DNA of 39,974 nucleotides from assembly GCA_022616515.1 (NCBI GenBank), contig JAKEEQ010000478.1, forward strand, positions 1 to 39,974, given 5' to 3'. Shown here piece by piece: positions 323 through 25,902 of this stretch. Positions within the stretch are counted from its first letter, which is position 1. The number at the start of each line of letters is the position of its first letter. The translations under genes were made by a program, and so were the position numbers. Under the pieces are notes generated by a model. It saw only the letters and a list, made by a program, of their open reading frames with translations, had not been told where the DNA came from and did not search any database. The stretch comes from Chloroflexota bacterium (GTDB lineage Bacteria > Chloroflexota > Anaerolineae > Aggregatilineales > J027).

Positions 323-3300
323 ATGGCACGAGTCCAGGCTGATCTCAAAGCCGGGTATTATCCTATCAACACTGACCATCTACCCCACATCGCACGTCTT
401 TTCACGCCGGGAGCAGGCAAAATACTTGACCCGTGTGCGGGGGAAGGCGCAGCACTGGCGTATCTGGCGCAGGCATGGGGCATGACACCCTATGCCAATG
501 AACTCAATCAGGAGCGCTATGCGCAGTGCCGGGAACGGTTCGGGGCGCTGCAAGCCGTGCAGGGGGATCTGCGCCAACTGCGGGCATCACGTAATGCCTT
601 CGGGGTGGTCTACTGCAATCCACCCTATTCACTGGATGCTACTGCCGATAAGGCGCACAAGAGGACCGAGTTCCAGATGCTGGGGCTAAGCTGGAAGTGG
701 GTGCAGCCCGGTGGCATATGTCTCTGGGTGGTGTACGATTACCATCTCAGCCAGAATCCACATGCGCTGGACTTCCTGACCTATCACGCCGCCCAGGTCG
801 ATGTCTATCGCCTGCCCGGATTACATCTGAAGCAGTACCAACAGATCCTGGTGGTGGCCCGCAAACGACTGGCGAAACTTGATCCATCCGCCGATATGCG
901 TGAGGCGCTGGCCGAGTTGACCGTCAAGGCGGAAAATCCACGCCCCATCACGGAAGTTACCAAGCCGCTGTATGAACTGCCTACCCCACCCGATCATAGT
1001 CGCTTCCAATTCGCGCCCGCCACACTCACCCCTGACTTTGCCCTGCAAGCTGTCGAGCAAGCGGGTGTCCATCTCCAGAATCGGTTTCAGAAGAGCATCG
1101 CGCCGCCGCCACCCGAAACGCTGGAACGGCCCATCACGCTGCCCAAAGCCGCTCAGGTCCTGATGCTGATCGTGTCGGGGTTTACCAATGGTATTGTGCT
1201 GGAGCTAGGCGATGGGCGAACCGTCATGGTACGCGGCACCATTCAACGCCAGCGGGCACTCACCCAGCAGGATGAGATTGTAGAACCGGGCAGCGGGCAG
1301 ATCATCGGGCGCAAGCAGACCTTCACGACACGACCTAAGTCAGTGGTGGCTCTGCTGGACGACGCGGGTCGTATTGAACTGCTCAAGGACGAAGCCGACA
1401 TCGTGAACTTTGTGGAGACCCACCGCGAGCAGCTCTTTGATTACGTCAAGACCCATCATCCACCGCTGTATGAGTTTGATTACGGTGGTATTCGCGAGCT
1501 GGTCGATGGCGTACGCCTGCCCCTCAAGGATGAGAAAAGCGGGCTGACCGAACTCAAGCCACTGTTTACGACCCAGCGGCACATGATCGCTGCTGCTTAC
1601 ACCGCCTTACAAGCGCGTCATCGCGTCCTGATTTCAGCCGAACCGGGGATCGGAAAGAGCATCCTCGGCGTGACACTGGCGGCAGCGGTGGGCAAGGATC
1701 GCCAGCCGGGTCAGGTGGTGATGGTGATGTGTCCACCCCAGCTCACGGGCAAATGGAAGCGCGAGATTGAACGGGCACACGGTTTACCGGATCGTTACGC
1801 CGAAATCCTGAGCCGGGTCGATGAGGTGCGTGATTTCATGGCGCGGGCCGAAGCGCATCCCGATGTCCTGCATATCGGGGTCATGTCGCGTGAGATGGCG
1901 AAACTGGGGTCAGGCTGGCAGCACGCCCTGCACTGGCAAGCCGTGCGTCAGGCACTGTGGCCCATTAACACACCGCCACCGGATGAACTAAAGGGCCGGG
2001 AACGCATCGCCACGGTCTATATCCCCTGCTGCCCGACCTGTGCCGAACCGGTGCGCAAAGCCGCCACCGGTGATCTCCTCTCGCCGGGACACTTTGGCTA
2101 TGATCCAAAGACCGGCACCTACGACAACCAGAAACGCACGCGTACCCAGTATCACTGCCGGAACTGTGGCGGTGCCCTGTACCAGATCACCCGCCTCAAG
2201 GGCAGCCAGCCTGGACCGGGTGAGAAGTTCCCCAGGCACAATCCACGCATGCCGCTGGCCGAGTTCATCGCGCGGGTGTATCCGGGGCGCGTCGCACTGA
2301 GCATTATTGACGAGGTTCACCAGTGCAAATCCTTAAGTGCCGATCAGGGGCGGGCCATGACCCATCTGGTCAACTGCTCAGAGAAGAGTGTGGGATTATC
2401 CGGCACAATTTTTGGCGGGCTGGCGTCGTCATTGTATCTACTGCTGTTCATGTTCTCGCATCACGTCCGGACCACGTATCCCTTCGGCAGCGGCGGCCAG
2501 CAGCGTTTCGTGGAAAACATGGGGGTTCTTGAGGAGGTGATCGAAGACCGTCCGCAGTACGAAAACGGCGTCTACAGCGGCACCAAACGTTATGACAGCG
2601 GCGTGCGCGAGAGTCCAGGCTGCTCCCCGCGTTTGGTGGTCGAGACGCTGCCGTGTACGGTGTTTGCCGGATTACACGACATCGGCCTCGACATGCCCGA
2701 ACTGATCGAGACGCCGGTGGCGATTACCCCGGATGTGGACCTGCGCCGCGCCTATGATCTGGGTGAGCAAAAACTCAAGGATTATCTGGCCGGACTGCGT
2801 TACACGGGCAAGCAGTGGACCTTCATGGGCGCTTACTTGCAGGCGTTGATGAATTATCCCGATGCCTGCGCCGACGCTTACCCCGTCTACCACAAAGAGT
2901 TCGACGAGACGGTATGGACCTTTCCCGGTCTGGGCGAGGACCAGCTTTACGCCAAAGAAGAAAAACTCATCGACATCGTCCGCCAGGAACTTGAGGAAGG
3001 CCGCAAAGTGACGGTCTTTGTGCGCCAAACGGGCAAGCGTGATGTGCAGCGGCGGTTGGCAAAACTGCTTACCGAACACGTACCCGGCGCAAAACCGTAT
3101 ATCATGTACGGGGGCAATAACGGCGGGGGTAGTGCGGAGGATGGCCTTCCCTCGGCCAGTGTGCCCACGCAGCAGCGTGAAAAGGCGCTCGATGACATGC
3201 TGGCCAAAGGCCGAAACGTGTTGATTTGTAATCCAATGTTGGTCGAAACAGGGCTTGACTTAATAAAGCTGCCTACCATTATCTTTTATGAACTGCTGTT

Positions 3301-3374
3301 TTCGCTGTACCCGATTGATCAGGCGTCGCGCCGTCACTGGCGCATCATCCAGCAGCAAGAGTGCCGCACATACT
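323..3374 (+). CDS. DNA methyltransferase-like / SNF2-type helicase fusion, exon 1 (DUF6094-like N-terminus)
   Basis: First exon of a gene split by a group II intron; exon 2 is 5808-6268 and the spliced product is 1170 residues. The N-terminal ~200 residues hold an AdoMet-binding motif (DPCAGEGAA, near residue 37) and an NPPY catalytic motif near residue 98, as in DUF6094/N6-adenine methyltransferase folds. A superfamily 2 helicase follows: Walker A EPGIGKS near 440, a C-x2-C...C-x2-C zinc-finger-like insert at about 569-615, a DEVH box near 661, a motif III-like SGT, and motif VI (QASRRHWRI) near 1000. The role is probably DNA processing or modification for the mobile element, which is inference. 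The unspliced frame stops at 3385 after CRTYCAP, just inside the intron. Start choice: ATG at 323 after a weak AGGCAGGA site. Confidence 0.8.
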
Positions 3375-3648
3375 GTGCGCCGTAAGACGGCATGTTGGAT
3401 TGTGCTTGAAGCACCGCAGGTTGAAGGAAAACACCTGTGAGGTCAGCCAACTTACCTGAGTGGGAAACCAGGAGGGGACAAAAGCATGTTGGCAAAGGGG
3501 TGAACTGTGAAGTCGTTTAGCAGAGTTTGCAACCCCAAGACCTGAATGTATGGGCAAAGCTGAATTGCTTGAAATCTAGTAGCAAGTTGGAAATCCGGCT
3601 TCCCTTGACACAACGACTAAAGTCAAGCCTCAGAGACAGCATTTTAGT

Positions 3649-3654
3649 AGTATG
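3649..3654 (+). other. Candidate EBS1 of the group II intron
   Basis: AGTATG is the exact reverse complement of the six exon bases before the intron (3369-3374, CATACT). It lies in domain I, where exon-binding site 1 is expected. I could not identify EBS2 with confidence. Confidence 0.7.
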
Positions 3655-3900
3655 GAAATGTGAAACCTTCTCTCTGAGAACAGGGTTAATGAAACCCCTC
3701 AAGCTACGAACGGATGCCCTAACCATTCTAAACGTCTAGCATGACTGTACTACGGGATTGCCTACAAGCCGCGAGGCTCATGGCAACGGAAACCCCATAG
3801 TAGTCGTGGGAGTAACGCCCCACCAAGGCAGTTGGGTAACGCCAACTACAGGGCGAAGGGGGTTAGGAATTCAAGCTGAAGATTTGGAAAGGTATGCGCA

Positions 3901-5709
3901 ATGCAAACAGCTCAACAAATTCTCACAGCTATACGCAAAATGGGAGAGAAGGATATACCGCTAACCAGGGTGTATCGAAGCTTGTACAGTGAGGATCTAT
4001 TCCTCACTGCCTACAGTCACCTTTATAGTAAGTCGGGCGCACTGACACCGGGCACAATCGATGATACCGTCGATGGAATGAACCTGGAACGTATTCGTGC
4101 CATCATTGAAGCGTTACGCCACGAACAATTCCATTTTCAACCAGTACGACGGACCTACATCGACAAACCCAACGGTGGACAACGCCCTCTCGGTATCCCG
4201 AATTTCAGTGATAAGCTTGTGCAAGAGGCACTTCGTATGCTGCTGGAAGCCTACTATGAACCACGCTTCCGCGAGAGTTCACACAGCTTCCGTCCTAAGC
4301 GAGGTTGTCACACCGCACTCAAGCATATCAAGCAGAAGTTTCCGGGTACAGTATGGTTCATTGAAGGCGATATTCGTGCCTGTTTCGACCACATTGACCA
4401 TGACATCCTGTTAGCTATATTGGCGCGGGACATTCATGACGGACGTGTGTTGGAACTCGTGCGACGTTGCCTCAAAGCGGGAGTGTTGGAAGACTGGAAA
4501 TATCACGCGACCCACAGTGGTACACCACAGGGAGGCGTGCTCAGTCCATTACTCGCCAACATTTATCTGCATGAACTAGACACTTTCGTTGAGGATACGC
4601 TCATTCCTCAGTACACAAAAGGTAAAATGCGAGCAGGAAATCCTGACTACCAGCGTATACACAGCCGGTTATGGAAGGCACGCCAACGTCAGCAAACGGA
4701 CCGGGTGCGTGAACTGCAAGCTCAGGTCCGCGAGTTGCCATCGGGTGATCCGCATGACCCTAACTATCGCCGACTAAAATATGTGCGCTATGCCGACGAT
4801 TTTCTGCTGGGGTTCCTTGGCAGTAAAGCGGAAGCAGAAGCCATTAAGACGGCACTTGCTGGATTTCTACACGACCAGTTGGGATTAGAGCTAAACACTG
4901 ACAAAACCCTGATCACCCATGCTCGCACCCAACAGGCCCATTTTCTGAATTATGCCATTAGTACTCAACATGAGAATTCCAAGATAACGCGAAACAGCAA
5001 GGGATTTAAAGGGCGAAGTGCTAATGGCAACATTCGACTTGGGCTGCCTCAAAACCTCATGCAACAACAGGCGAAACGGTATCTGCGCGATGGCAAAATC
5101 GTTGGTGATGGGACTTTGCTGCATTACTCAGATGCCCATATCATTGAAACCTATCAACAGCGTTTCAGTGGTATAGCAGAATACTACAAATACGCGACCA
5201 ACCGAAGCCAATTGAATCGTTTGCAGTACATAATGCAACAATCATTGGTGAAAACGCTTGCCAGCAAATTCAAACTCTCAGCAAAACAAGTCTATAAGAA
5301 GTACTCTGGTCGTAAAGTCGTTGACCATCACCTGTATCGAACGCTCCAGGTGGAAATTCCTACTGGTGAAGCTTCACGTCTTATTTACTGGGGTGCAATA
5401 CCCTTGAGAGTTGTGCCGATCGGGATGAAAACCATCAACGATCAGCCGAAGTTTGAAGGCGCGTTGGCTAAAACTGATCTTATTCAGCGTCTACAAGCTA
5501 ACAGATGTGAACTATGTGGTTCCACAACTGATGTGGAGGTTCATCATATTCGTAAGCTCGCAGACCTGAAAAGACGGTGGGCAGGTCGCAAAGAAAAACC
5601 CGCATGGGTAACCAAGATGATTGCCATTCAGCGAAAATCACTGATCGTCTGTCGGTCATGTCATCTGGCAATTCATGCTGGACAACCAACTCCCAATTTG
5701 CATGAATGA
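3901..5709 (+). CDS. ltrA: Group II intron reverse transcriptase/maturase with HNH endonuclease domain
   Basis: The intron-encoded protein (602 residues) promotes splicing and retrohoming. The N-terminal reverse transcriptase domain carries FRP, GDI and QGGVLSPLLANIYL-type blocks and the catalytic YADD (about residues 298-301). A long charged linker of about 60 residues precedes YADD, as in many organellar-like intron proteins. A maturase (X) domain follows. The C-terminus has an HNH-type zinc-binding endonuclease: CELC, then the EVHH core, then CRSC and HLAIH. The ATG at 3901 follows GGAAAGG eight bases upstream. The full length and intact YADD and HNH motifs suggest an active protein. The stop at 5707-5709 lies nine bases before domain V. 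Confidence 0.95.
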   Translation: MQTAQQILTAIRKMGEKDIPLTRVYRSLYSEDLFLTAYSHLYSKSGALTPGTIDDTVDGMNLERIRAIIEALRHEQFHFQPVRRTYIDKPNGGQRPLGIPNFSDKLVQEALRMLLEAYYEPRFRESSHSFRPKRGCHTALKHIKQKFPGTVWFIEGDIRACFDHIDHDILLAILARDIHDGRVLELVRRCLKAGVLEDWKYHATHSGTPQGGVLSPLLANIYLHELDTFVEDTLIPQYTKGKMRAGNPDYQRIHSRLWKARQRQQTDRVRELQAQVRELPSGDPHDPNYRRLKYVRYADDFLLGFLGSKAEAEAIKTALAGFLHDQLGLELNTDKTLITHARTQQAHFLNYAISTQHENSKITRNSKGFKGRSANGNIRLGLPQNLMQQQAKRYLRDGKIVGDGTLLHYSDAHIIETYQQRFSGIAEYYKYATNRSQLNRLQYIMQQSLVKTLASKFKLSAKQVYKKYSGRKVVDHHLYRTLQVEIPTGEASRLIYWGAIPLRVVPIGMKTINDQPKFEGALAKTDLIQRLQANRCELCGSTTDVEVHHIRKLADLKRRWAGRKEKPAWVTKMIAIQRKSLIVCRSCHLAIHAGQPTPNLHE

Positions 5710-5717
5710 ATTCTGGA

Positions 5718-5751
5718 GAGCCGTGTGATGTGAAAGCATCAAGCACGGTTC
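5718..5751 (+). ncRNA. Group II intron domain V catalytic hairpin
   Basis: A 34-base hairpin with lower stem GAGCCGTG/CACGGTTC (one G-U pair), an AG bulge, upper stem GATGT/GCATC and GAAA loop. This is the canonical length and layout of domain V. The AGC triad is at 5719-5721. Confidence 0.92.
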
Positions 5752-5807
5752 GGAGAGGGGCGGATAGAAAAGTGTCTACACGATAACTCGCTAGCCGCCT
5801 ACTCTAC

Positions 5808-6268
5808 ATCTCTACTATCAGGAGACGATGGAGGAGCGGGCGCTGGAGATGCTTGCCAAAAAGCGGGATGCCGCGCAGATCCTATACGGTGACATGAGTG
5901 CCACCGGACTGGCCGCGCTGACCGGGGAAGGCGGCATTGCCAATGATCTGGTCAAGGCGCTGGAGCAAGCTTTGCACACGGAAGACAACCCGGACACGGA
6001 GCGTGAGGATGCCGATTTACAGACGTTGTTTGAGCGCACCTCGCTGGCCCATTACGCAAGTCCGTGGACGCTGGCCGTGCAGGCCGAGGGTGTCCAGGCT
6101 GAAGGTGAAGTGCTAGCGGCACCAGCCATCCAGCCAGCGCCAGTACCCGTCAAGACCCCACCGGTCGTCAGGCCGCTTCCACCACGTCCCATCCGTCAGC
6201 CGCAGTTGCCCAGATACCAGCCTGTGCCCATCCGGGCCGAGGATGCCGTCCAGCCCCGTCTGTTCTAA
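5808..6268 (+). CDS. Methyltransferase/helicase fusion, exon 2
   Basis: The second exon starts exactly after the intron. Joined to 3374, codon T|AT reads Tyr, and the junction reads CRTY-YLYYQETMEERALEMLAKK. That is the usual segment after helicase motif VI, where a tyrosine-rich strand is followed by a TMEERAL-type helix. The exon adds about 153 residues: a helical end of the helicase domain and then a Pro-rich tail (about 6118-6265) ending in QPRLF. Taken alone, the ATG at 5828 would give an apparent 146-residue protein. It lacks its own ribosome site and should not be annotated as a separate gene. Total coding length 3052 + 461 = 3513 bases, exactly 1171 codons. Confidence 0.9.
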
Positions 6269-6331: not shown

Positions 6332-6883
6332 ATGTCTCGCGAAGCCCTGGATCGTTATCATGCCCGTTACGACCAAAAGCAGTACATGGCGCTGCAAAAA
6401 GACATCGCCCACGCCCTGCGCCGGTCGCCGGACGACAAACTCACCAGTGTGGTCATGAATCGCATAACGGACACCGCGCTTGAGCTATGCAATCACCCGG
6501 CGCATGAAGGCGCACACCTGGAACTGGCGATTGTCTGTCAGGCGTATCATCTGCCGCTGCCCATCATTGACGGGATGCATGAGTACTTGCAGGGCTACAC
6601 CACCGGTCAGGACATCCGGCTGACCGATTTCCGGGCCATTGCTAAAGCATTACACACCGCCACCAATGCGTTTGATGATCTACGCGCCAGTAGTCTCTGT
6701 GCCAGTGCTATCCACAGTTGGCAGGGTCGTTGTGCCCATCACCTCCTGGTGGCGGCTGAACACCTGACCCTGGCTGCCCGGCATCTGTTAATGGGTAAAC
6801 ATGATGGCTATGTCAAAGAGAAACTGACGCTGGCCGAGGAACGAGTGACCATGGCGCAGCAGGAAGGACCTGCTAATGATTAG
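6332..6883 (+). CDS. Unrecognised soluble helical protein
   Basis: The protein has 183 residues when started at ATG 6332, which has GAAAGGA eight bases upstream. An in-frame ATG at 6293 lies inside the preceding terminator hairpin and is rejected. The sequence is mostly alpha-helical in appearance and rich in Ala, His and Leu, with several His (GAHLEL, HSWQGRCAHHLLVAAEHL) but no motif I can tie to a family. There is no signal peptide or membrane span. It stands between two terminators, so it may be an independent transcript or receive read-through from the helicase gene. It is probably an element-specific accessory gene; I assign no function. Confidence 0.7.
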   Translation: MSREALDRYHARYDQKQYMALQKDIAHALRRSPDDKLTSVVMNRITDTALELCNHPAHEGAHLELAIVCQAYHLPLPIIDGMHEYLQGYTTGQDIRLTDFRAIAKALHTATNAFDDLRASSLCASAIHSWQGRCAHHLLVAAEHLTLAARHLLMGKHDGYVKEKLTLAEERVTMAQQEGPAND

Positions 6884-7000: not shown

Positions 7001-10000
7001 TTAATAAGAGCGAGCACAGCGAAACCCGATGTCGTGGCTCCTGCTGAACGGATAGAACCCGGGACGATCCGACGCACGGAAGATGTCCGTACCGGTATCG
7101 TCCCACGAGCTGCCCCGCAACATGCGGCGAACATATGTGCTGAAATTTTCGTCGCTGATGACCACTTGTGGGTTCTCATAGTCGGTCAGGCACCATTCCC
7201 ACACATTGCCGCTCATGTCCATAATGCCATACGGTGATTTGCCCGCCGGGAAAATACCCGGGGCGCTGGTCTGGTTGATACCCGTTTCTGGGGTGTTGCT
7301 GACCGTAGGGTCAAAGGTGTTGCCATACGGGAATTTCAGCCCGGTCAGACCGCGTGCTGCTTTTTCCCATTCAAACTCAGTGGGCAGGCGTACCCCCCAG
7401 TTTTGTACATCAGCCAACGCAGGAATTGCAGCGCCTTCGCCGGATAATTTCCAGCTCAACCAGCGGCAAAAGGCCATGGCCTGATACCAGTTGACCGACT
7501 CACGCGGGTGATTCCAGTATTTGAAATACTGGTTTTCCCTTACCTTATCAGCTTCATCGGCTGCCATCCCGGCCAACCAGTCGATGTCCGGGTTGTCATA
7601 GCCATCGTCGGCATCCAGAAAGGCTTGAAACTGGCGATAAGTCACTGGATAGCGAGTCAGATAAAAAGCTGGCAGGGGGTCATGTTCAACACCCTGATAA
7701 ATCCATTTCTTCTTTTCATTCGGGATGCGTACCCAGCCAAAATCAGGCAAACCGTCGACGTTGAGGCCAAGGCCGGGACGATCATCGGCGTCAAATAGAC
7801 CCAGTACGCGATAGGCCGCGGCCCTTCCGACTGGATTTTTCTCGCCTGTTTTTGTTTGTGCGCTCTGGATGAGGACAGTGCGCGTGTTTTCACTGATGGT
7901 TTCCAGCGTAGCATCGTCCCGTATCCGCTGTAGAGTCTGTGTACCCAGTTCGGGGCTGGCCTGCCCCAGCCAGCGGGCCACCCCTTCCACATCTTTGGTA
8001 AATTCGGCTAACATCAGAGCTGTTTCGCGCCAGGTGGATAGATCCCACCACGTTTCACCGATTACCGATGTTGGATCTTCACCGGCATACATTTGCACAG
8101 CCAGTGTCTCCGCCGAAAAATATTCCTGCAATAACTGGTGGGCAAAACGTATGTCATCGCCATTCAGGACGAGAATGCTGGCATCCAGCCCGGCCTGCAT
8201 CAGCCCATCATCACTCACATCCCCGATCTTGAGGACGGTGGTGGTGGCAGTCTGCATCTGACGTGCCAGACCCGTCAGGAAGTTTTTCAGTTCATCAAAG
8301 TCCGGGAAAGGCTGACCGCGTTTTTCGGCGTGCTCCTTTTCGCGCTCATACAAATCACTCACAAATGCCATGTACAATTCGGCGCGATTGTCCGGCATCT
8401 GCTCTTTCTGATGAAGGGTACAGATGACCCGCGCCAGATAGGGATTACGGGCCAGTGGTATGAGCTTCGCCCCCTCCCACATCAGTTGCCAGGCACGACG
8501 TCCACTCCAATCTCCAGTTGAATAGGAAAACTTAGTGTCTTGCTTCCAGAAACGCTGTGGTTCGCTTTCTGCTTGAACGACCTGCCAAAATTTCATCAAT
8601 TCCTGACTCCCTCCCATACGCTGCCACAGTTCCTCATCGTCGTACTTTAGTAGTTGTTTATAGCGCCGCACAAATTCGCGGATGGCGGGCAGTTCAAGAT
8701 CACGTACTTCGAGCCGTTCCAGTTTCAGGCTGTCCAGGTCGTTGTCGTAATCCCGAATGCGGCAGGACACCACAAACAGGGGCACCTCAGCTAATGTGTC
8801 GCGCACGTCGGGCAGGAGTTCGCGCTGGTCCTCAGTGGTTGACACGCGCGGCATTTCGTTGAGCGCATCGCAGATCAAGACCAGCCGCTCATCTTTCAGC
8901 AGTTGGGTGTAGTAGGGAGCCAGCTCGCGCATTTGCTGCCTGATGTATGCCTCAAACGAGACGTCGCCCTTGAAGGCGTTGAGTGGCACATAGACGGGCA
9001 CCCGCTGCAAATCTGCGTAGCGGTTGATATAGTGCATCGCCAGCCGTTCCAGTGTAAATGTCTTACCGGAACCGGGTTCACCGACCAATACCACCCGCTG
9101 GCTGTGTGTCAGCGTTTCGAGGATATCCTCAACATAGCTGGGCTCAGATGTTTCTGGCTGGCGCAGCAAGCGCATATTCTCAATATCTGTAGGGTCAGAT
9201 CGTGTGGGCTGGTGGAGATCAGCGTCCAGCTCGACAAGGAACTGGTCAATGACATCCTCAAATTCGGTCAGGAAGGGGTCATCATAAACATCTTCAGGCG
9301 CTTCACGCGATTTGGGCTGGAATACGCTGCGAATGTCGCCTTCCAGATCAACGAACAGCTTCTCGAACACAACCAACTTGCGCCGGATGCGCAGGTCATC
9401 CAAGTATTTGTTTATCTTGGTGGCGACATTTTCCGGGTCTGCCCTCCAGTGAACAAGATCGGTAATGAAGTCGCTGGCAGTTGGATAGCGTTCATCGGCT
9501 TTTTTGGCAGTGGCCCGGTGTAATATGCTGAGAATTTCATCCGGCAGCGTGGGATGAGCGGGCAGCAGATCATCCATATGCTGCTGGAGCAAGCGAGCAT
9601 GGCTGGAGGCGTCGTACGGAAACTCGCCGGTCAACATTTCATAGGCGATAATCGCCAGCGCATAAACATCGGTCTGCGGCGACACCGGCTGATTGTACCA
9701 CTGCTCCGGGGCCATATACTTCTTGGTGCCCACCCATTCGCCTGAATCGGTCAGGCTCATGTCCTCTTCCGGGCTAACCGCCAACCCAAAATCACCCAGA
9801 TACAAATTGCCTTCGCGCATCAGAATATTTTCCGGTTTCACATCACGATGGACAATGCCCTGCTGGTGAGCGAAGTGCAGAGCTTCAGCAATCTGCTGCA
9901 AGTAGTGAACCGTTTCTTTGTCGCTGAAGACGCGCCCCTGCATAAAGTCACGCAGGGTTTCGCCTTTCACATAATCCATCACGGCATAAAATTGTGCTCC

Positions 10001-10768
10001 GATGTGATCCCAGTGAGTGGTGCGGATGATGTGGGGATTATTGAGACGTCTGGCGACACCAATCTCATGCTCGAAGCGTTTGATACGCTTCGGATTATCA
10101 CTCACCTCACGCTTCAAAATCTTAATGGCAACATCAAAGGTACCGCCACAGGGCAGCGGATCAGTGGCTTGCCAGACTTCGCCGTTGCCACCCTGCCCCA
10201 ACTTCCTGACAAAGGTATAGCGCCCGGCGAGCACTTCACCCACACGCGGCTCAAAATCGCTCTCATCGCCACCGGCCTCCTTGAATTGTTGGACACACTC
10301 ATCCGCGCTCAGGGCCAGCAGGACCTTCTTCTCAAGATCGTCAATGGAGTCGAAAAACACGATCTTGTCTTCAAGCACTTCCTTGCGAAAGGCGGTGAGT
10401 TCGTCATAAACCAGTTCCGGCCTGAATCTGTCATCCAACAAGAAGACCAGCACACACGCCTGACCGCGTGCAGATCGTTCTTTGGCCCGGCGGTATTCCA
10501 GGTGAGTCATGGACAGGCCATCGGGATTGCGTGGATCGTCGGGTTTATACCCATAGCGAAAACCGAGCAGCAAAACATAGATTTCTGCCTCATTAACGAG
10601 ATCCAAGGAGTAACTCAGGCCATCTTTGCTCATGGCTGAGTCGTTGTCCATCATACGCGGCACCATCTGCAAAGAGGAGATGATGCTGCTCAAGCGCTTA
10701 CGGTGCTCGCCAAGATCGTTGGTGGTGCTGCTGACCATGACATCAATACGAGGTTTCTTCGAGGACAT
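7001..10768 (-). CDS. DUF4062 / Ser-Thr kinase / NACHT / FGE-fold multidomain protein
   Basis: A 1255-residue cytoplasmic protein with four parts. (1) Residues 1-165 are DUF4062-like (VMVSSTTNDLGEHR; LLLGFRYG). (2) A Hanks-type kinase spans about 184-450, with glycine loop GQGGNGEV, Lys216 in VAIKIL, HRD at 307-309, DFG at 326-328 and APE at 353-355, so it looks active. (3) A NACHT/STAND ATPase has Walker A GEPGSGKT at 563-570, Walker B LVLICDALNE and a helical arm. (4) A formylglycine-generating-enzyme/C-type-lectin-like fold fills the last ~230 residues (RLPTEFEWEKAARG, GNVWEWC, LRGSSW, IGFRCAR). The Cys pair used by true FGE enzymes is not visible, so this end is likely a binding module. 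Start: ATG 10768, giving the usual short lead into DUF4062; GAAAGG lies rather far upstream. Inference: ligand-sensing signalling or defence protein. Confidence 0.85.
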   Translation of the reverse strand: MSSKKPRIDVMVSSTTNDLGEHRKRLSSIISSLQMVPRMMDNDSAMSKDGLSYSLDLVNEAEIYVLLLGFRYGYKPDDPRNPDGLSMTHLEYRRAKERSARGQACVLVFLLDDRFRPELVYDELTAFRKEVLEDKIVFFDSIDDLEKKVLLALSADECVQQFKEAGGDESDFEPRVGEVLAGRYTFVRKLGQGGNGEVWQATDPLPCGGTFDVAIKILKREVSDNPKRIKRFEHEIGVARRLNNPHIIRTTHWDHIGAQFYAVMDYVKGETLRDFMQGRVFSDKETVHYLQQIAEALHFAHQQGIVHRDVKPENILMREGNLYLGDFGLAVSPEEDMSLTDSGEWVGTKKYMAPEQWYNQPVSPQTDVYALAIIAYEMLTGEFPYDASSHARLLQQHMDDLLPAHPTLPDEILSILHRATAKKADERYPTASDFITDLVHWRADPENVATKINKYLDDLRIRRKLVVFEKLFVDLEGDIRSVFQPKSREAPEDVYDDPFLTEFEDVIDQFLVELDADLHQPTRSDPTDIENMRLLRQPETSEPSYVEDILETLTHSQRVVLVGEPGSGKTFTLERLAMHYINRYADLQRVPVYVPLNAFKGDVSFEAYIRQQMRELAPYYTQLLKDERLVLICDALNEMPRVSTTEDQRELLPDVRDTLAEVPLFVVSCRIRDYDNDLDSLKLERLEVRDLELPAIREFVRRYKQLLKYDDEELWQRMGGSQELMKFWQVVQAESEPQRFWKQDTKFSYSTGDWSGRRAWQLMWEGAKLIPLARNPYLARVICTLHQKEQMPDNRAELYMAFVSDLYEREKEHAEKRGQPFPDFDELKNFLTGLARQMQTATTTVLKIGDVSDDGLMQAGLDASILVLNGDDIRFAHQLLQEYFSAETLAVQMYAGEDPTSVIGETWWDLSTWRETALMLAEFTKDVEGVARWLGQASPELGTQTLQRIRDDATLETISENTRTVLIQSAQTKTGEKNPVGRAAAYRVLGLFDADDRPGLGLNVDGLPDFGWVRIPNEKKKWIYQGVEHDPLPAFYLTRYPVTYRQFQAFLDADDGYDNPDIDWLAGMAADEADKVRENQYFKYWNHPRESVNWYQAMAFCRWLSWKLSGEGAAIPALADVQNWGVRLPTEFEWEKAARGLTGLKFPYGNTFDPTVSNTPETGINQTSAPGIFPAGKSPYGIMDMSGNVWEWCLTDYENPQVVISDENFSTYVRRMLRGSSWDDTGTDIFRASDRPGFYPFSRSHDIGFRCARSY

Positions 10769-12208: not shown

Positions 12209-12817
12209 TTGCCTGATCAGACGCTGATCATCACCAATCTGGCCTTCAAAAGCCCTAAACGCTGGCAGCGTGGTCAGGGAAACCGGGGTCTACAAGCCAC
12301 CCTCAAATATATCCAATTTCGCGATGATCGTGAGACGGCAGCCCCACCCGATAAGGGAGATCGCTGGGTAGACTGTGGGCTGGGCGATAACTACCGTTCC
12401 ATTTTCCAGCAGTGCAAAGCGTTGAAGACCGACAAAGTATTGGCCTGGACCTGGGTCATCAGCCCGGAACCATCGGTGATGAACTTGTTGCCCGCCGAGA
12501 AGCGTGTCGAGTTGATGAAATCACTGACGGAGACGATTGTGGATCGTTACCATGATGAGCGCGGCTTCGAGCCAAACTACAGTTATGTGGTCCATGATGC
12601 TCTGACGACCGATGGACGACCGCATACCCACAGCCATGTTATCCTGCCGGGCACGGTGCAGGAGCATCTGGGCGGGCAGACGCCGTTTGTGAATTATGCC
12701 AGTCGCGGTCATCTGCAACTGCTCGATAACATCGCCCATCAGGAGTTGGAGAGATTGCTGGAGCGGGAAGTAGGGCGGGAGTGGCGACACAATCCTGAAT
12801 TCAATATCAACCCGTAA
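12209..12817 (+). CDS. Putative compact conjugative relaxase (HxHxH)
   Basis: A 202-residue protein with a TTG start three bases after the RHH stop, so it is probably translationally coupled; no closer ATG fits the conserved N-terminus. The central motif GRPHTHSHVILPG gives a His cluster at 139, 141 and 143, typical of the metal-binding triad of HUH relaxases. An upstream VVHD His lies at 129. Tyr34 in TLKYIQFRDD is the best candidate nicking tyrosine. The enzyme would nick one strand at oriT and stay covalently attached for transfer. It is much shorter than MOBP or MOBF proteins and lacks a helicase or primase end. The relaxase call is from motif and neighbours; the exact MOB class is not clear. 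Confidence 0.68.
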   Translation: MPDQTLIITNLAFKSPKRWQRGQGNRGLQATLKYIQFRDDRETAAPPDKGDRWVDCGLGDNYRSIFQQCKALKTDKVLAWTWVISPEPSVMNLLPAEKRVELMKSLTETIVDRYHDERGFEPNYSYVVHDALTTDGRPHTHSHVILPGTVQEHLGGQTPFVNYASRGHLQLLDNIAHQELERLLEREVGREWRHNPEFNINP

Positions 12818-14294: not shown

Positions 14295-17200
14295 TCATTC
14301 GGAAGCAAACTGTGGACAGGTCGGCTCATCATCAGGAATGCCGTACTGTTGGCGTTCTGCTTCGGTAAAATCCCGGAAAACCCGTGTACAAGCGTAGGTA
14401 ATAAAATCATGGTAGTCGGTATCCCACAGGCGGGCGGTCCCATCTCCACTCCCTGTTAGCACGTAGCGTCCGTCGGGACTGAAGGCCACGCTCGACACCC
14501 AATCCGTATGCCCTGTGAACTGGCGGAGTTCTTCGCCCGTCTTAACATTCCACAGGCGGGCGGTCCCATCCTCATTACCTGTCAGCAAATACCGCCCATC
14601 GGAGCTGAAGGCGACGCTAGTTGCGGGATCTGTATGTCCGACGAACCTTTGGAACTCTTCGCCTGTCACGACATCCCTCAGGAGGGCAGTGGCATCATGA
14701 CTACCGATCAGTACATACTGTCCATCCGGGCTGAAAACTACCCTGAACGCAGGACCGCCGAACTGGCGGAGTTCCTCACCTGTCTCAACATCCCACAGGC
14801 GGGCGGTCCAATCCGTACCTCCTGTCAGCACATATTGTCCATCCGGGCTGAAGGCCACACTGGTTACAGGGTCTGTATGTGGGATGAACTGGCGGAGTTC
14901 CTTGCCTGTCTCAACATCCCACAGCCGCGCGGTGCTATCATCACTACCCGTCAGCACATAGCGCCTATCGGGACTGAAGGCTACGCTTCTCACCCAACTG
15001 GTATGCCCGGTGAACTGGCGCAGTTCCTGACCTGTCGCCGCATCCCACAGGCGGGCAGTGGTATCCCAACTGCCTGTTAGCACATAGCGTCCATCCGGGC
15101 TGAAGGCCACGCTCGTCACCTCATACGTATGCCCGGTGAACTGCCGCAGTTCCTCACCGGTTGCAGCATCCCATAGGCGGGCGGTGCTATCATAACTGCC
15201 CGTCAGCACAGTGCGCCCATCGTGGCTGAAGGCGACGCTTTGCACATCATCCGCGTGCTCGGTGAACCGACGCAGTTCTTCAGATGTTTCGACATCCCAC
15301 AGGCGGACGGTACCATCCCCACTACCTGTCAGCACGTAGTGTCCATTGGGACTGAAGGCGACACTGTACACACCAGCAGTATGTCCGGTGAACTGACGGA
15401 CTTCCTCACCTGTCTCGACATCCCACAGCCGAGCGGTGGCATCCTGACCACCTGATAACTCCCCGCTACCCGTCAGCACGTACCGCCCCTCCGGGCTGAA
15501 GGCCACGCTGGTTATAGGGTCCGTATGCCCGACGAACTGATGCAGTTCCTCGCCTGTCTCGGCATCCCACAGCCAAGCGTTGCCATCGCTGGTGCCTGTC
15601 AGCACATACCGTCCATCAGGACTGAAGACAACGCTAGTTACCCACCAATGCGTGTATCCGCCGAACTGGCGCAGTTGCACACGTTTCTCGACATCCCAAA
15701 GCCGGGTGGCGTTATCCCAACTGCCAGTCAGTACGTACCGCCCATCTGAACTGAAAGCCACGCTGGTTACTGCTAAATAATGCCCTAAAAACTGACGCAG
15801 TTCCTCACCTGTCTCGACATCCCATAATCGAGCAGTGTTATCAAGTTCAACCGATCTAGTTGACATATTGCCACCGCCGGTCAGGACAAACCGTCCGTCG
15901 GGACTGAAGGCGACGCTGGTCACCACATCGGTATGCCCGATAAACTGACGCAGTTCCTCGCCTGTCTCGACATCCCATAGGCGGGCGGTGCTATCCCAAC
16001 TTCCGGTCAGGACAAACCGTCCGTCGGGACTGAAGGCGACGCTGGTCACCACATCGGTATGCCCGATAAACTGACGCAGTTCCTCGCCTGTCTTGACATC
16101 CCACAGGCGGGCGGTGTAATGACTGCCCGTCAGCATATAACGCCCATCAATGCTAAAATCCACGCTCAACACCGAACCTATATTCCTTAAAATCTGGCGC
16201 GTATATGACCGATCCATTGCCCATACTAAAGCAGTATCGGCTTGGGTAGTGTAAGCGGTCTTCAACGCCCGAATCGCCAGCAGAGCAGCAGTTTCGACGT
16301 TCCCCGCTGGCTCATTCAAGATATTGCTAGCCAGCGCCGCTAATCGTAGCGATTCGATTTTGGCTTCGCCTTCAACAACCTCCTGTTGCACAAGAGCTAA
16401 CTCAGCCTGCTCTGTACCAATCTGCTCAGCTACCACAGTCAAAGTCACTGGAATTGGTGTCAAAGTCAGGGGAATCGGAGTTAATGTTTCCTGCGCCGCC
16501 ACTGCCTGAGTATTGGCAGCTTCGACCCGAAGTTGCGAATCAGCAATCTGTGTTTCCCCGGCGGCTAAGGTTGCCCCAACAGGTGTCAGCGTACTAGGAA
16601 TCGGGGTCAGGGTTTCCCCTGCTTCGAAAACCTGTGTATTGGCCTGATTCGCCGCTCGATTTGCCTCATTGCGTTCCTGATTGGCATCGGTTGCAAGAAC
16701 TCCAGCAAAGATCGCGGCAGCAATCGCCATCACCACAAAGATTGCCAAGCCTGCCGAGGCGCGTTGAAAGGTGCGGATGCGTTTTTCGCGGGCGAGTTCC
16801 TGTGCTTTGCGGGTCTCTTCGGCCTGGCGGCTGGACAAGATGTAAGTACGGTGGAGTTCTGTTGGTTGCGGGTCTTTCTGTTCCTGATCGGCGGTCTGCA
16901 ACCACTGCTCGGCAAAGGCCAGATCATCGCCACCCATCAGAAAGCTGGGGTTCTGACCACTGCGCTCCCACTCCAGCGCACGAATCTGATAGCGGGTATG
17001 GGCTTTGATGTGTGGCTGGTCTTCTTCGAGCGCCTTGAGTAAAGCATTAAATTCTTTTTTAAACTTTGGATCATCATCAAAGAAAATCCAGTTCAGTTGG
17101 CGGATATGCTCCCAGTTGTCGCGGGCCATCTGCTCATAGGGCGAATCCATCCACCGCCCCTTAACCCGCATTTCAACATCATCTTCAATGCGCTGGCGAA

Positions 17201-17465
17201 TCAAGGGAAAGACCCGCTTGTTATTCTGGCGGGCGTATGCGAGTTCTTTATGGCAGATTTCACTGGTTAACCAGTGTTCGCTAATGACGCAGATGAAGGA
17301 TTCGCTGTTTTCAATGCCGAGTTCAATTTCGCGTTCCCAGGCTTCGCCACGTGGAATATCCTGCCAGTCCACCCAGACGACGCGATTGACGTCGACAAGG
17401 GCATTGCTCAAATGTTGGGCAAAGGCTCCGTCGCGTCGTGAATAGGAGATAAAGACATCGCTCAT
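14295..17465 (-). CDS. TIR / transmembrane / 14-blade WD40 protein
   Basis: The protein has 1056 residues from the Met with AAGG upstream (an in-frame ATG at 17480 lacks one). Residues 1-~100 are a TIR domain (DVFISYSRRD; WQDIPRGEAW; CHKELAYA), with Glu74 at the position of the NADase catalytic Glu. A helical segment (~140-230) follows, then one transmembrane helix at ~236-257 with a basic cytoplasmic side. A Thr/Pro/Gln/Ala linker with repeated LTPIP units spans ~280-345, followed by 14 WD40 repeats from ~425, enough for two seven-bladed propellers. The predicted topology puts TIR inside and the propellers outside. It is single-gene, convergent with the GIY-YIG gene. Inference: a sensor whose TIR end acts on NAD+ or signals when the propeller detects a ligand. 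Confidence 0.85.
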   Translation of the reverse strand: MSDVFISYSRRDGAFAQHLSNALVDVNRVVWVDWQDIPRGEAWEREIELGIENSESFICVISEHWLTSEICHKELAYARQNNKRVFPLIRQRIEDDVEMRVKGRWMDSPYEQMARDNWEHIRQLNWIFFDDDPKFKKEFNALLKALEEDQPHIKAHTRYQIRALEWERSGQNPSFLMGGDDLAFAEQWLQTADQEQKDPQPTELHRTYILSSRQAEETRKAQELAREKRIRTFQRASAGLAIFVVMAIAAAIFAGVLATDANQERNEANRAANQANTQVFEAGETLTPIPSTLTPVGATLAAGETQIADSQLRVEAANTQAVAAQETLTPIPLTLTPIPVTLTVVAEQIGTEQAELALVQQEVVEGEAKIESLRLAALASNILNEPAGNVETAALLAIRALKTAYTTQADTALVWAMDRSYTRQILRNIGSVLSVDFSIDGRYMLTGSHYTARLWDVKTGEELRQFIGHTDVVTSVAFSPDGRFVLTGSWDSTARLWDVETGEELRQFIGHTDVVTSVAFSPDGRFVLTGGGNMSTRSVELDNTARLWDVETGEELRQFLGHYLAVTSVAFSSDGRYVLTGSWDNATRLWDVEKRVQLRQFGGYTHWWVTSVVFSPDGRYVLTGTSDGNAWLWDAETGEELHQFVGHTDPITSVAFSPEGRYVLTGSGELSGGQDATARLWDVETGEEVRQFTGHTAGVYSVAFSPNGHYVLTGSGDGTVRLWDVETSEELRRFTEHADDVQSVAFSHDGRTVLTGSYDSTARLWDAATGEELRQFTGHTYEVTSVAFSPDGRYVLTGSWDTTARLWDAATGQELRQFTGHTSWVRSVAFSPDRRYVLTGSDDSTARLWDVETGKELRQFIPHTDPVTSVAFSPDGQYVLTGGTDWTARLWDVETGEELRQFGGPAFRVVFSPDGQYVLIGSHDATALLRDVVTGEEFQRFVGHTDPATSVAFSSDGRYLLTGNEDGTARLWNVKTGEELRQFTGHTDWVSSVAFSPDGRYVLTGSGDGTARLWDTDYHDFITYACTRVFRDFTEAERQQYGIPDDEPTCPQFASE
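15877..16093. repeat. 91-base exact direct repeat inside the WD40 region, period 126 bases
   Basis: Bases 15877-15967 are identical to 16003-16093. The 126-base period is exactly one 42-residue WD40 blade (GHTDVVTSVAFSPDGRF...). The identity at DNA level points to very recent blade duplication or gene conversion. Confidence 0.9.
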
Positions 17466-17503
17466 CGTTGCTGCCTTCATTGATTGTCATTGCATTATGA
17501 TGA

Positions 17504-17689: not shown

Positions 17690-17983
17690 TTATTTTTTCA
17701 ACTTCCTACGTAGGGTAAGTCCTGGTCTGACAAGTAATCGCTTATGTATCCGGGGGGCAGGCACTAATTCGCCATTTCGTAGCAGGTGGCCTGCTTGCTC
17801 CTGCGGACGATAGATTTCCCGCACTTCGAGAATAAAGAAGTTATCAATCGCAATCTTCTCACCATTTGCCAGCGCTTCGGACCACACCTCAATCAGAGCG
17901 GATACTGCCAGTTCAGCCTGCTTATATGTCAGTCCGCTGCGCCGAGATATTTCACGCACAGTAACTTTCTTCGTAACCGTCAT
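17690..17983 (-). CDS. HU/IHF-family DNA-bending protein
   Basis: A 97-residue protein of the usual HU length. The N-terminus (VTVREISRRSGLTYKQAELAVSALIEVWSEAL) is the helix-turn-helix dimerisation body. GEKIAIDNFFILEVREI then fits the GxxV-x-I-x2-FG-x-F strand region of HU, though FG is replaced by NF. The C-terminal arm is basic (RIHKRLLVRPGLTLRRKLKK). It binds and bends DNA and may help organise the oriT complex or replication of the element. Its ATG overlaps the stop of the coupling-protein gene (ATGA), so it is the last gene of the transfer operon. Confidence 0.85.
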   Translation of the reverse strand: MTVTKKVTVREISRRSGLTYKQAELAVSALIEVWSEALANGEKIAIDNFFILEVREIYRPQEQAGHLLRNGELVPAPRIHKRLLVRPGLTLRRKLKK

Positions 17984-19905
17984 TGCTGCTGCCTTCCCCG
18001 TATGGTTTTGCGTAACTCAGAAACAGGCATCTGTTTTACCTGACGTGCCTGTTTATCCAGTGTTTTTACCGCTTGTTCGGCGCTGTAATCGGTAGCAAGG
18101 CCAAGATCCAGTCCGCGTTCCAGCAGGAGCGGTTCGCGATCACCCGTCTGCCGCAAACGCTGCTGCCAGTCACGGCGCTCATAAAAGCGCGTCAGACGGG
18201 CATGCAGCACGACCTGGGTGGCAAAGCCCGCCTCCACATAGCGGGCAAAGATCGTGCAGTTGCCGCGCTGGGGCGTCATGATCTCATCGACGGTCAAGAG
18301 CGGGCGCTGGCGCACAGTTTTTTCCTCCGCGACGGTGGTTTGCCCGGCAGTTCCGGAATAGTAACTCGCCGTCTCGCCGTCACAGCCGCCGTAGATGATC
18401 TGGGTCGCCAGTCCCGCCAGCAGGGCCTGAGTGCCCGCCTGCCCATAAATCATATGGAACTGCCCCTTGGTCTGGGCCCCAATGAGGATCGAGATGCGGC
18501 GCTTGCGCACCAGATTAACATCCGCCACCAGACTATCGAGCTTACCCAAGGTAGGAAATTCATCAAGGATGACACCCACCGGTACCGGCAGCGGCCCACC
18601 GTTGGCCTCGCCTAATGTGTCGAGATCCATCATGAGCTTGCGCAGGGTCGCCCCCAGATAGGGGGCATAAACGGCCCGCATACGGCCCGGACAGGTCAAC
18701 ACGATGACGGTCGGCTGCTGGATAAGTAAGTCAGCGGTGAAATCACAGGCCGCGGTATTGCCCCGCACCTGCTGTGACGCCCAGCCGGTCAGCGCGGTGC
18801 CCAGCGTGGCGATGACATTGGCGGCAACCTTGCCATCCGAGCGCGTGCTGGCGACAAAGGCATTGGCGAGCAGGGCAGCATCATCGGCCTGGCTACTCAG
18901 CGTTTCAGCTAGTTTGGCGGCATCATTCATGGCGGCATAGATATCCCCCAAATTGGCAAAGCGCAACAGACAGGCGGCCAGCAGGGCGGTAGCACTATCG
19001 GACCAGAAGCGGTTATCGCCGGTGGCGGCAGGCACCAGCACATCCGCGATGGCTCGCGCATCCGAGACGTTGTGAATGCCTTCGGCCAGATTAAAACGCG
19101 GTCCGGTGGCCCGCGTCGGATCGTGGATGATCAGCATATGCCCGGTGATTCTCGCAAAATCCAGAATATGGGGCTGGAGTTCGCCCTGTGGGTCGGCGAT
19201 GATCAGACTGTGGCCGGACTGCATGCGGTCGGCAATAGCAGGCAGGATGACCCCCTGCGACTTGCCACTGCCTGCCGCGCCAATGGTCAGTACGCCGCGT
19301 GCGGCATCTTCCCCGCTGAGGCGCAGGACGCCGGTGTTCCAATCCAGACGGCGCTGCTCATGGCCCCAGAACGCCCCATAGAGTGACATGCCATCCGGAT
19401 CAACCCGGCGGAAGCGGTGAAACTCACGCATGGTGCACAGGTGCGATGAGCCAAGCGCACCACGCACGGTACGCGGCACTCGCCACCGGTCGACCTGTTC
19501 GCGCATGTGACCGCCCTGGCGCAGCCCTTCTTGCAGGACCATATTCAGCCCAAAGACCAGCAGCAGACCGCCCAGACCGGTGAGCAACAGGAGCGCTTGA
19601 TTCACGGTGGGCGGTCCACCGGCGATGGCCTTCAGGACGGGGGAGCTGATCATTGTTTCTGAGGCAAGCTGGACGGCGACACTGCGCATGAGTTGCAGGT
19701 AGACCAGCAGCCCCATTAGTGACATGAGACTATGCACGATGCCGCGCAGCCAACGATCCCGTCCGGAGACGCCGTCACGCATACCGTCACGGCGGATACT
19801 CGGTCCCATCAAGTAGGCAACTAGCCAGGGCAGCGGCAGCGCCAGACACAGCAGGGGCAGCAAACACCACCCCACACTTAACTCCGTCAGCAGCCAATAC
19901 ATCAT
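17980..19905 (-). CDS. virD4: VirD4/TraG-type coupling ATPase
   Basis: A 641-residue membrane ATPase that would bring the relaxosome to the transfer channel. The N-terminal ~125 residues have several hydrophobic segments (about 10-34, 55-75 and 102-122). Walker A GAAGSGKS is at 209-216, followed by ADPQGEL. Walker B is in VGVILDEFPTLGKL, followed by the conserved LIGAQTKGQ. The start is the first of two adjacent ATGs (MMYW), with GAGGG ten bases upstream. It overlaps the preceding 57-residue gene by ATGA. A longer in-frame reading back to 20151 is rejected because it runs through that gene and the SLOG gene in a biased frame. Its stop overlaps the HU start. Confidence 0.93.
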   Translation of the reverse strand: MMYWLLTELSVGWCLLPLLCLALPLPWLVAYLMGPSIRRDGMRDGVSGRDRWLRGIVHSLMSLMGLLVYLQLMRSVAVQLASETMISSPVLKAIAGGPPTVNQALLLLTGLGGLLLVFGLNMVLQEGLRQGGHMREQVDRWRVPRTVRGALGSSHLCTMREFHRFRRVDPDGMSLYGAFWGHEQRRLDWNTGVLRLSGEDAARGVLTIGAAGSGKSQGVILPAIADRMQSGHSLIIADPQGELQPHILDFARITGHMLIIHDPTRATGPRFNLAEGIHNVSDARAIADVLVPAATGDNRFWSDSATALLAACLLRFANLGDIYAAMNDAAKLAETLSSQADDAALLANAFVASTRSDGKVAANVIATLGTALTGWASQQVRGNTAACDFTADLLIQQPTVIVLTCPGRMRAVYAPYLGATLRKLMMDLDTLGEANGGPLPVPVGVILDEFPTLGKLDSLVADVNLVRKRRISILIGAQTKGQFHMIYGQAGTQALLAGLATQIIYGGCDGETASYYSGTAGQTTVAEEKTVRQRPLLTVDEIMTPQRGNCTIFARYVEAGFATQVVLHARLTRFYERRDWQQRLRQTGDREPLLLERGLDLGLATDYSAEQAVKTLDKQARQVKQMPVSELRKTIRGRQQQ

Positions 19906-20075
19906 GTGCGGCGCACCCTCAGTTGGAATACACCGGACAAACCCACACCCACGATCAGCGAGGCCAGCCACAGGCTGCCCACAACCGACGTACCAGCCAC
20001 GTGATGCAGGACCAGCATCAGCAGATTGACCAGGCTGCCGATAGTCAGCAGCCCGGTCAGTATCGCTCGCCTCAC
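19902..20075 (-). CDS. Small two-helix membrane protein between SLOG and VirD4 genes
   Basis: A 57-residue frame with a GTG start that overlaps the SLOG-gene stop (GTGA), and a TGA stop that overlaps the VirD4 ATG (ATGA). Two hydrophobic stretches are visible (about residues 5-24 and 31-50), with arginines at both ends (MRRAIL... and ...LRVRRT). The precise double overlap in a chain of coupled genes is strong evidence that it is real, although it is short and has no ATG. It may be a small partner of the coupling protein, in the way small membrane subunits assist VirD4/TraG proteins; that is inferred from position. Confidence 0.72.
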   Translation of the reverse strand: MRRAILTGLLTIGSLVNLLMLVLHHVAGTSVVGSLWLASLIVGVGLSGVFQLRVRRT

Positions 20076-21352
20076 AGGTCGATGTCCCAGGCGAGCTGCT
20101 GATCAACATGATCCGCCAGGTCATGGGCGGTGTCTTTGTCGATGGTTTCACCGACGTACGGCAGGTGATGGGCCCGCGCCATGCCTTCCACTACGCCCAG
20201 AAAATGATCCAGATCATTGTTGCGGTGCAGGGAATCGACCAACTGCTCACCACATTCCAGTGCCTGGGCAAAGTCGCCCTCATAACAGGGCGTGATATAC
20301 GCCTGCGGGTGGTTGGTCTGCACATCCTGCACGGCCAGCACACAGGTTCGGGCGCGTTTGTCATCAACGTCATCGCGCACGACCCCAATCCACAGCGCGG
20401 TATCTGACTCAAAATCATAATGCGGCAGGCTGTCCAGCGACGGCTGGTCGAAATCGGCATCCAGCTCCAGACCAAATTCGGTCAGGTCGAAGGCATGGAA
20501 GGCGAGCGACTCCGCCAAGTCTCGCTCCAGCTGCGCCGGGTCAACCCCGCACCATTCACAGATTTCCTCCAGACTCGTCCCATGATAGTCGGACGGCTCG
20601 GGCAAGTTGGTCATCGCTGCTACCTCCTTGAGAAAGGCGTCGTAGGCCGGATCGTTCGCCAGTTCAACGTCCGGCACTGGCTCAGGTTGCTCCACGTGGC
20701 GCACTGGCGGAGCGGGTTCCAGATCAGGATCGTAGGTGCGCTCGACGATGCGCATGCGACCACGCTCCATCACCGCCAGATCCGCGTCTTTCCCCTGACT
20801 GGCGGCATAATCAAAGGCGTGTTTGGTGCCGGGTGACCGCCCATTCCAGATCGCTAGCACCCGGTCGGCATTCTCGACCATGCGTTCGTCACGCTCGGGA
20901 TAACCCAGCCGCTTAAGGACCCGCTTGTGTTCCGGTTCATGATAGAGGCCACCCGGATGGATTTCCTGCACCTCCTCGCGCATGGTCTGCACATAGCGGC
21001 AGTGCTGGCTGTCCAGCACCAGCGGGTTGCGCGGGCTGCGGTCCACGCCATATACCAGACAATCCACCCCCTGCACATGGCAGGCTTGCACGACGGCATG
21101 ATCTACCCCCTGCGGGTTGTCGCCGACGATGATGCGCATGTCCTGCTGGTCAGCCCGCTGCACCACCCGGCTGACATAATCCGTCATATGCTGAAGCTGG
21201 TTGATTTCCCACTCACGGCTGCCGGTGATGAGTAGAGCCGGTTTGGCTACCGCATCAATGTCCGGCTGTGGGCCGCGATAGCCGCGCGGATCATTGGGGG
21301 GCGGGGGTTCTTCGGGCTTGATATAGGCGGTATCATAGGTTTTATAGGGCAT
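20072..21352 (-). CDS. SLOG-superfamily (YspA/DUF2493-like) protein with long acidic C-terminus
   Basis: A 426-residue protein. Residues ~38-190 show a Rossmann-like SLOG pattern: LLITGSREW, then IIVGDNPQGVDHAVVQAC, then ADRVLAIWNGRSPGTKHAFDYAASQGK. In related families this fold binds nucleotides or nucleotide-derived ligands. Residues ~200-426 are acidic and helical, with an inner segment (TALWIGVVRDDVDDKRARTCVLAV) that looks like a separate alpha/beta domain I cannot name. The gene begins at the stop of the topoisomerase gene (TGATG) and ends overlapping the 57-residue gene. Its place within the transfer operon suggests a role in the mobile element and not in defence alone. The biochemical role is unknown. 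Confidence 0.7.
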   Translation of the reverse strand: MPYKTYDTAYIKPEEPPPPNDPRGYRGPQPDIDAVAKPALLITGSREWEINQLQHMTDYVSRVVQRADQQDMRIIVGDNPQGVDHAVVQACHVQGVDCLVYGVDRSPRNPLVLDSQHCRYVQTMREEVQEIHPGGLYHEPEHKRVLKRLGYPERDERMVENADRVLAIWNGRSPGTKHAFDYAASQGKDADLAVMERGRMRIVERTYDPDLEPAPPVRHVEQPEPVPDVELANDPAYDAFLKEVAAMTNLPEPSDYHGTSLEEICEWCGVDPAQLERDLAESLAFHAFDLTEFGLELDADFDQPSLDSLPHYDFESDTALWIGVVRDDVDDKRARTCVLAVQDVQTNHPQAYITPCYEGDFAQALECGEQLVDSLHRNNDLDHFLGVVEGMARAHHLPYVGETIDKDTAHDLADHVDQQLAWDIDL

Positions 21353-25426: not shown

Positions 25427-25902
25427 CACGACACCTCCAGCAGGTGGTCATCCAGCGGCCCTTCGACGAAGACCAGATCATCGTCGCTGAGCGCCTCCGG
25501 ACGTGACACCCACTGGCTAGCGGGTGTCAGCGTCGGGTGATCTGGTGGGGCGAACAATGCATCCCCATCAATAACGGTGATCGCGCTTACGGGCAAATCC
25601 AGTGTCTCACTCAGCCGCGCTGCCAGTCCATCCGGCTGCCGGGCTGCCAGCAGAATGAGGCGACCGCGCAGGCCCAGCGACCAGCGCAGCCACAGCGGCA
25701 TACCGTGCCGCTGCCCGGTCAGGATGAGTACACTCATGGCAACGCCGACCGCGACCACGACGGTAAACCCGCCCATGAAGATGCCGCCCAGCGCGAAGCA
25801 CAGACCCCCGGTCACGCCGCTCAGCAGCCAGCGTTTGAAGGGAATGCCCAGCAACCCTTTTTCGTCGCGCCGCAGCACATGCGATTTGAAGTCGGCGGCC
25901 AT
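25426..25902 (-). CDS. VirB3/PrgI-like membrane component
   Basis: A 158-residue protein with a basic N-terminus (FKSHVLRRDEKGLLGIPFKRW). A hydrophobic hairpin follows (about residues 26-62), then another weakly hydrophobic segment and a soluble acidic tail. Size, membrane hairpin, and position between the pilin-like gene and virB4 match VirB3/PrgI-type subunits, which anchor the VirB4 ATPase to the membrane. Sequence motifs alone would not prove it. The gene starts inside the stop of the preceding gene (TGATG), and its own stop overlaps the virB4 start. Confidence 0.65.
   Translation of the reverse strand: MAADFKSHVLRRDEKGLLGIPFKRWLLSGVTGGLCFALGGIFMGGFTVVVAVGVAMSVLILTGQRHGMPLWLRWSLGLRGRLILLAARQPDGLAARLSETLDLPVSAITVIDGDALFAPPDHPTLTPASQWVSRPEALSDDDLVFVEGPLDDHLLEVS

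Follow-up and report, generated by a model that had tools for sequence, protein, structure and literature searches.

We analysed a stretch of 39,974 nucleotides of a Chloroflexota metagenome contig (JAKEEQ010000478.1; hereafter the window) and found that a methyltransferase-helicase gene of a conjugative element is interrupted by a group II intron. By its sequence, 3375-5807 (+ strand, 2433 nt) is a complete group II intron of the IIA/ML type, and the ends proposed in an earlier sequence-only reading of this DNA are exact to the base. It is very probable that an intact mobile intron of this type retrohomed or retrotransposed into the gene, and that its splicing restores a protein of 1170 amino acids (aa).

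The intron starts with GTGCGCC at 3375, in which GTGCG agrees with the group II 5′ consensus GUGYG, and it ends in CTAC, with AC at 5806-5807 agreeing with the 3′ consensus AY; its terminal sequence is CCTACTCTAC. The sequence-only reading had suggested a covariance-model search for group II domains. This search returned the Rfam family RF00029, the group II catalytic core of domains V and VI, at 5716-5807 (66.7 bits, E 4e-11), which bears out the proposed intron. Domain V was placed at 5716-5751 (+) by this match and by alignment of 3′ ends. Domain VI lies at 5754-5805 (+), and its bulged branch-point A (A5801 in the window) is invariant across 14 introns whose aligned 3′ ends share domains V and VI. 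A consensus fold of domain I from 11 related 5′ regions, calculated with no separate structure control, has 141 pairs, of which 85 show double-sided changes.

The intron encodes a reverse transcriptase-maturase-HNH protein of 602 aa (3901-5709, +), in which all three domains (Pfam RVT_1, Intron_maturas2 and AI2M-like_HNH) and the YADD motif are intact. Among solved structures, LtrA of the intron Ll.LtrB was its best and only full-length match (2.8e-123). Such an LtrA-like protein indicates the IIA/ML type, the ML class being assigned here from this match and not from a tree with reference classes. Judged by these features, the intron is probably intact, mobile, of the IIA/ML type and active.

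Related introns were gathered from the order, class and phylum, and their ends were set by GTGCG and the Rfam match. Using 39 of these introns, including some in hosts without homology support, we scanned each position of the 5′ region blind, comparing its pairing with the intron's own upstream exon and with the exons of the other introns. With the last six bases of the exon, the scan peaked at 3648-3651, on the proposed exon-binding site 1 (EBS1), where the gap was 1.61 pairs; the best distant position reached 0.25. With exon bases −12 to −8 it peaked at 3595. In both cases 0 of 20,000 permutations reached the observed own-exon pairing, in tests that treat the introns as independent although they are related. 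In the window, EBS1 (AGTATG, 3649-3654, +) forms 6/6 Watson-Crick pairs with the intron-binding site IBS1 (CATACT, 3369-3374, +), as first proposed from complementarity. No other position scored higher in the unbiased covariation scan. EBS2 (CCGGC, 3595-3599, +) lies in a hairpin loop of domain I in the comparative fold and is the scan maximum for IBS2 (GCCGC, 3363-3367, +). The delta nucleotide, T at 3648 (+), immediately precedes EBS1 and pairs with the first base of exon 2, A5808; 28 of 31 introns pair at this position, against a permuted mean of 12.7. This delta pairing, next to EBS1, places the intron in subgroup IIA. There is strong comparative evidence that the introns of this set recognise the exons that they occupy.

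The interrupted gene had been identified as a helicase, and its domains and homologues agree. Exon 1 (323-3374, +) encodes an N-terminal DUF6094 methyltransferase domain (Pfam, 6.6e-15) and a helicase C-terminal domain (Helicase_C, 3.6e-5), and exon 2 (5808-6268, +), defined by the junction and by homologues, encodes the C-terminal 153 aa including the junction codon. As predicted, removing 3375-5807 joins T to AT within one codon, in frame, and gives 3513 nt, or 1171 codons with one terminal stop. The protein reads ECRTY before the junction and YLYYQETMEERAL after it (ECRTY/YLYYQETMEE around the splice), and the intron site lies just after helicase motif VI. Matches to the helicase were found in 55 of 151 genomes, comprising the window's own and 150 relatives. 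Compared with 28 intron-free homologues, the spliced protein has no indel at the junction in any case (0/28), and over the first 30 residues of exon 2 it shares 11-15 identical ones with them; the more distant homologues carry one extra residue four positions upstream of the junction. The sequence-only reading had named beforehand, as grounds for abandoning it, homologues that mismatch the junction; none was seen, and intron-free homologues continue ungapped across it. It had also expected a truncated helicase and a spurious 146-residue protein in annotation. Mechanical calling of open reading frames (ORFs) on the unspliced sequence gave just these, a 1020-aa product ending in CAP, three codons into the intron, at a TAA stop (3383-3385, +), and a separate downstream 146-aa ORF beginning at 5828. 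A search of viral contigs with the helicase found no relatives. An apparent insertion at the window's codon in genome G129 was rejected, as the helicase there is uninterrupted at that position.

These features suggest how the gene might be expressed. The host mRNA would be transcribed through the intron, and the ribosome translating exon 1 would exit at the TAA three codons inside it. The intron-encoded maturase would then be translated and assist folding of the RNA, with the exons held by EBS1, EBS2 and delta. Branching at A5801 followed by exon ligation would yield an mRNA for the full 1170-aa helicase. We infer that such splicing occurs inside the cell, and it is reasonable to suppose that transfer of the element may depend on it.

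Two other explanations dispense with splicing. It is very unlikely that the intron is splicing-defective here and that a broken helicase gene leaves the 1020-aa truncated protein. Group II introns in bacteria are mostly present as truncated or inactive copies (PMC4424553), and decay does occur in this family, since a relative in genome G087 begins TTGCG rather than GTGCG; however, all the catalytic and recognition elements tested in the window are intact, both exons are open and exon 2 is still homologue-like. Still more improbable, to the point of being nearly discounted, is that exon 2 is translated alone from the ATG at 5828 and that the two halves work as separate proteins. The 146-aa ORF does have an AGGAG just upstream, but the spacing to the ATG is only 3 nt, the letters of both AGGAG and ATG are codons of the conserved stretch around ETME, the conserved block preceding the ATG would be lost, and none of the aligned intron-free homologues is split here. 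A further idea is compatible with splicing and concerns its consequence: by analogy with Ll.LtrB and its relaxase, the intron might act chiefly as a brake, the freed intron re-targeting the ligated helicase mRNA through EBS-IBS pairing and lowering helicase and transfer. Ll.LtrB attacks and reopens ligated exons, lowering relaxase expression and conjugation 3-4-fold, so that conjugation is reduced and not abolished (PMC6003770), and the IBS1-EBS1 pairing with the ligated exons is perfect here; but the strength of such an effect is not readable from sequence, and we consider it possible though rather unlikely.

Several points weigh against restoration of the helicase by splicing of an intact intron. 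The evidence comes from DNA, and the source is a metagenome-assembled genome, 80.6% complete and in 564 contigs, with one intron copy, which therefore offers no empty allele with the same flanks. A candidate second copy in the same genome was rejected, as a 33-base match on contig C393 encodes an unrelated protein. In the window intron EBS2 and IBS2 pair at only 4/5 positions. The Rfam models for group II domains D1-D4 gave no match at the gathering score, so the identity of domain I rests on the comparative fold; as a library match is not a defining feature, this was not taken to exclude a group II intron. Finally, the relaxase of the surrounding element is assigned from a motif and gene order only.

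This element had also been proposed from the sequence. The window contains a relaxase-like protein (12209-12817, +) with the motif HTHSHVILPGT, which has no Pfam or NCBIfam match and adjoins VirD4 in relatives. It also contains a VirD4/TraG coupling protein (17980-20151, −; Pfam T4SS-DNA_transf, 1.3e-32), a type IA topoisomerase (21352-23121, −; library domain match) and a VirB4/TraC-like ATPase (23309-25429, −; NCBIfam TraC-F-type, 6.9e-8). In genome G019 the order of helicase, relaxase, VirD4, topoisomerase and VirB4 is conserved. Together, these genes and their order in G019 indicate that the helicase is part of a conjugative element, as the sequence-only reading held. Large cargo proteins at 7001-10768, 14295-17480 and 26361-31106 look by eye like conflict-type proteins of kinase-NTPase, TIR-WD40 and NTPase-repeat kinds.

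The stop codon soon after the 5′ splice site was examined across the related introns, leaving out those whose hosts lack homology support. In 20/26 introns the host frame met a stop within 24 nt, compared with 16.5 when host phases were permuted (p 0.044), for a threshold chosen after looking and among introns that are related. Frame-1 stops were found in 5/6 phase-1 hosts versus 3/20 others (p 0.0045). The window intron and that of G087 carry a TAA in frame 1 in place of the codon-7 stop usual in frame 0. These counts give only a hint that the lineage tends to carry an early stop in the frame of its host. Stops soon after the 5′ splice site have been reviewed for group I introns (PMC3073962), and a frame-matched early stop in group II introns may be new. 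The G087 intron (locus L111, contig C62), with its 5′ end near 6366, has TTGCG at its 5′ splice site and is probably impaired.

Members of the methyltransferase-helicase family are interrupted by nine introns of the lineage, each at a different codon. Besides the window site after motif VI, they lie in NPPY of the methyltransferase domain (G008a), at position 836 of the same gene (G008b), in Walker A (G114), before motif II (G776), in motif III (G280), in motif V (G028), between motifs V and VI (G176) and after motif VI, four residues downstream of the window site (G438a). At the eight mappable sites, conservation of the four codons upstream of the insertion exceeds that of random positions (p 0.0008). 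A tree of 43 intron proteins does not unite the helicase introns; it has nine host-label changes, at least seven of which are forced by well-supported branches, indicating that the helicase invasions were mostly independent. Other hosts, identified by Pfam or motif, include genes for SSB, ParA (at its Walker A), ThiF, RadC, MazG, IstB, IstA, TnpB and a relaxase-like protein. The SSB introns in G373 and G398 (L124 and L130) occupy the same codon, between RDPEMR and Y, and the third SSB case (L117), in G212, probably does so too, at a locus gapped with N. Tentatively, and with less than even confidence, we suggest that this lineage specialises on codons of the catalytic motifs in a single conjugation gene, with EBS1, EBS2 and delta evolving anew at every new site, and that it also adapts its 5′ end to place a frame-matched stop within about eight codons of the splice site, which would free ribosomes before the ribozyme. 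Among the open full texts searched, none reported a single lineage that occupies nine codons of a gene family and has exon-binding sites to match.

Other interruptions were seen in the related genomes. In G144 (contig C6, L077 and L043) and G087 (contig C17, L076 and L042), a helicase of the same family is split between ERLDRHE and D by an element of 24-26 kb with a large serine recombinase at its junction, and that of G144 also carries an actin-like protein and a relaxase-like gene. Split inteins and trans-spliced introns were considered for these two helicases and rejected in favour of this element, which is similar to mobilizable elements found in the SNF2 helicase genes of integrative and conjugative elements (ICEs) of Streptococcus suis (PMC12479173). 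The window's own genome holds a helicase N-half with a recombinase on contig C540 (L038, 3043-5148). Truncated helicase copies at L034-L036, considered as intron-interrupted, have no related intron reverse transcriptase nearby and look decayed. In G821 (contig C2, L136) an intron of the lineage is nested in a second group II intron, within the latter's reverse-transcriptase frame. Another intron of the lineage, in G337 (contig C26, L123, 990-3399), splits the anticodon stem of a tRNA-Arg(CCT) gene; when the flanks of the intron are joined they give a canonical 74-nt tRNA, and none is detected unspliced. Among the 45 tRNAs typed in this 99%-complete genome, no other Arg-CCT gene was seen. A tRNA check of intron flanks in G588, G462, G344, G607 and G744 found none, and the open full texts searched contained no bacterial tRNA gene interrupted by a group II intron.

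Group II introns in conjugation genes, including an ICE helicase, are already known, and the window intron adds another case. Ll.LtrB and Ef.PcfG reside in relaxase genes of Gram-positive conjugative elements (PMC5072309, PMC6003770, PMC4256276). Like them, the window intron is of the IIA/ML type, has an LtrA-type protein and sits in a conserved part of a conjugation gene whose full protein needs splicing, but its host is a helicase and not a relaxase, in Chloroflexota, and its lineage is spread over many targets, while Ll.LtrB returns to a single conserved relaxase motif. In S. suis ICEs, group II introns occupy the helicase (two sites), virB4 and coupling-protein genes (PMC12479173), and there too those in the helicase gene fall in its helicase domains and the intact protein needs splicing. 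Those are four divergent families with one fixed site each, two of them in the helicase, in contrast to the single lineage here, at nine helicase-family codons with EBS1, EBS2 and delta changing to match. Trichodesmium has multiple group II introns in coding genes (PMC4649490), as G008 has two in one helicase gene; however, most of the introns shown to splice there lack an ORF and rely on factors supplied in trans (PMC4649490), whereas both G008 introns carry their own maturase and their host belongs to a conjugative element.

A conjugation helicase that appears broken in annotation can thus be made whole by splicing, a point of importance when conjugative elements are sought in uncultured bacteria. 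In addition, related introns with matching exon-binding sites provide a natural experiment in the gain of new targets by a IIA intron, and nine separate invasions of one gene family are suited to asking why introns settle in the conserved codons of mobile elements.
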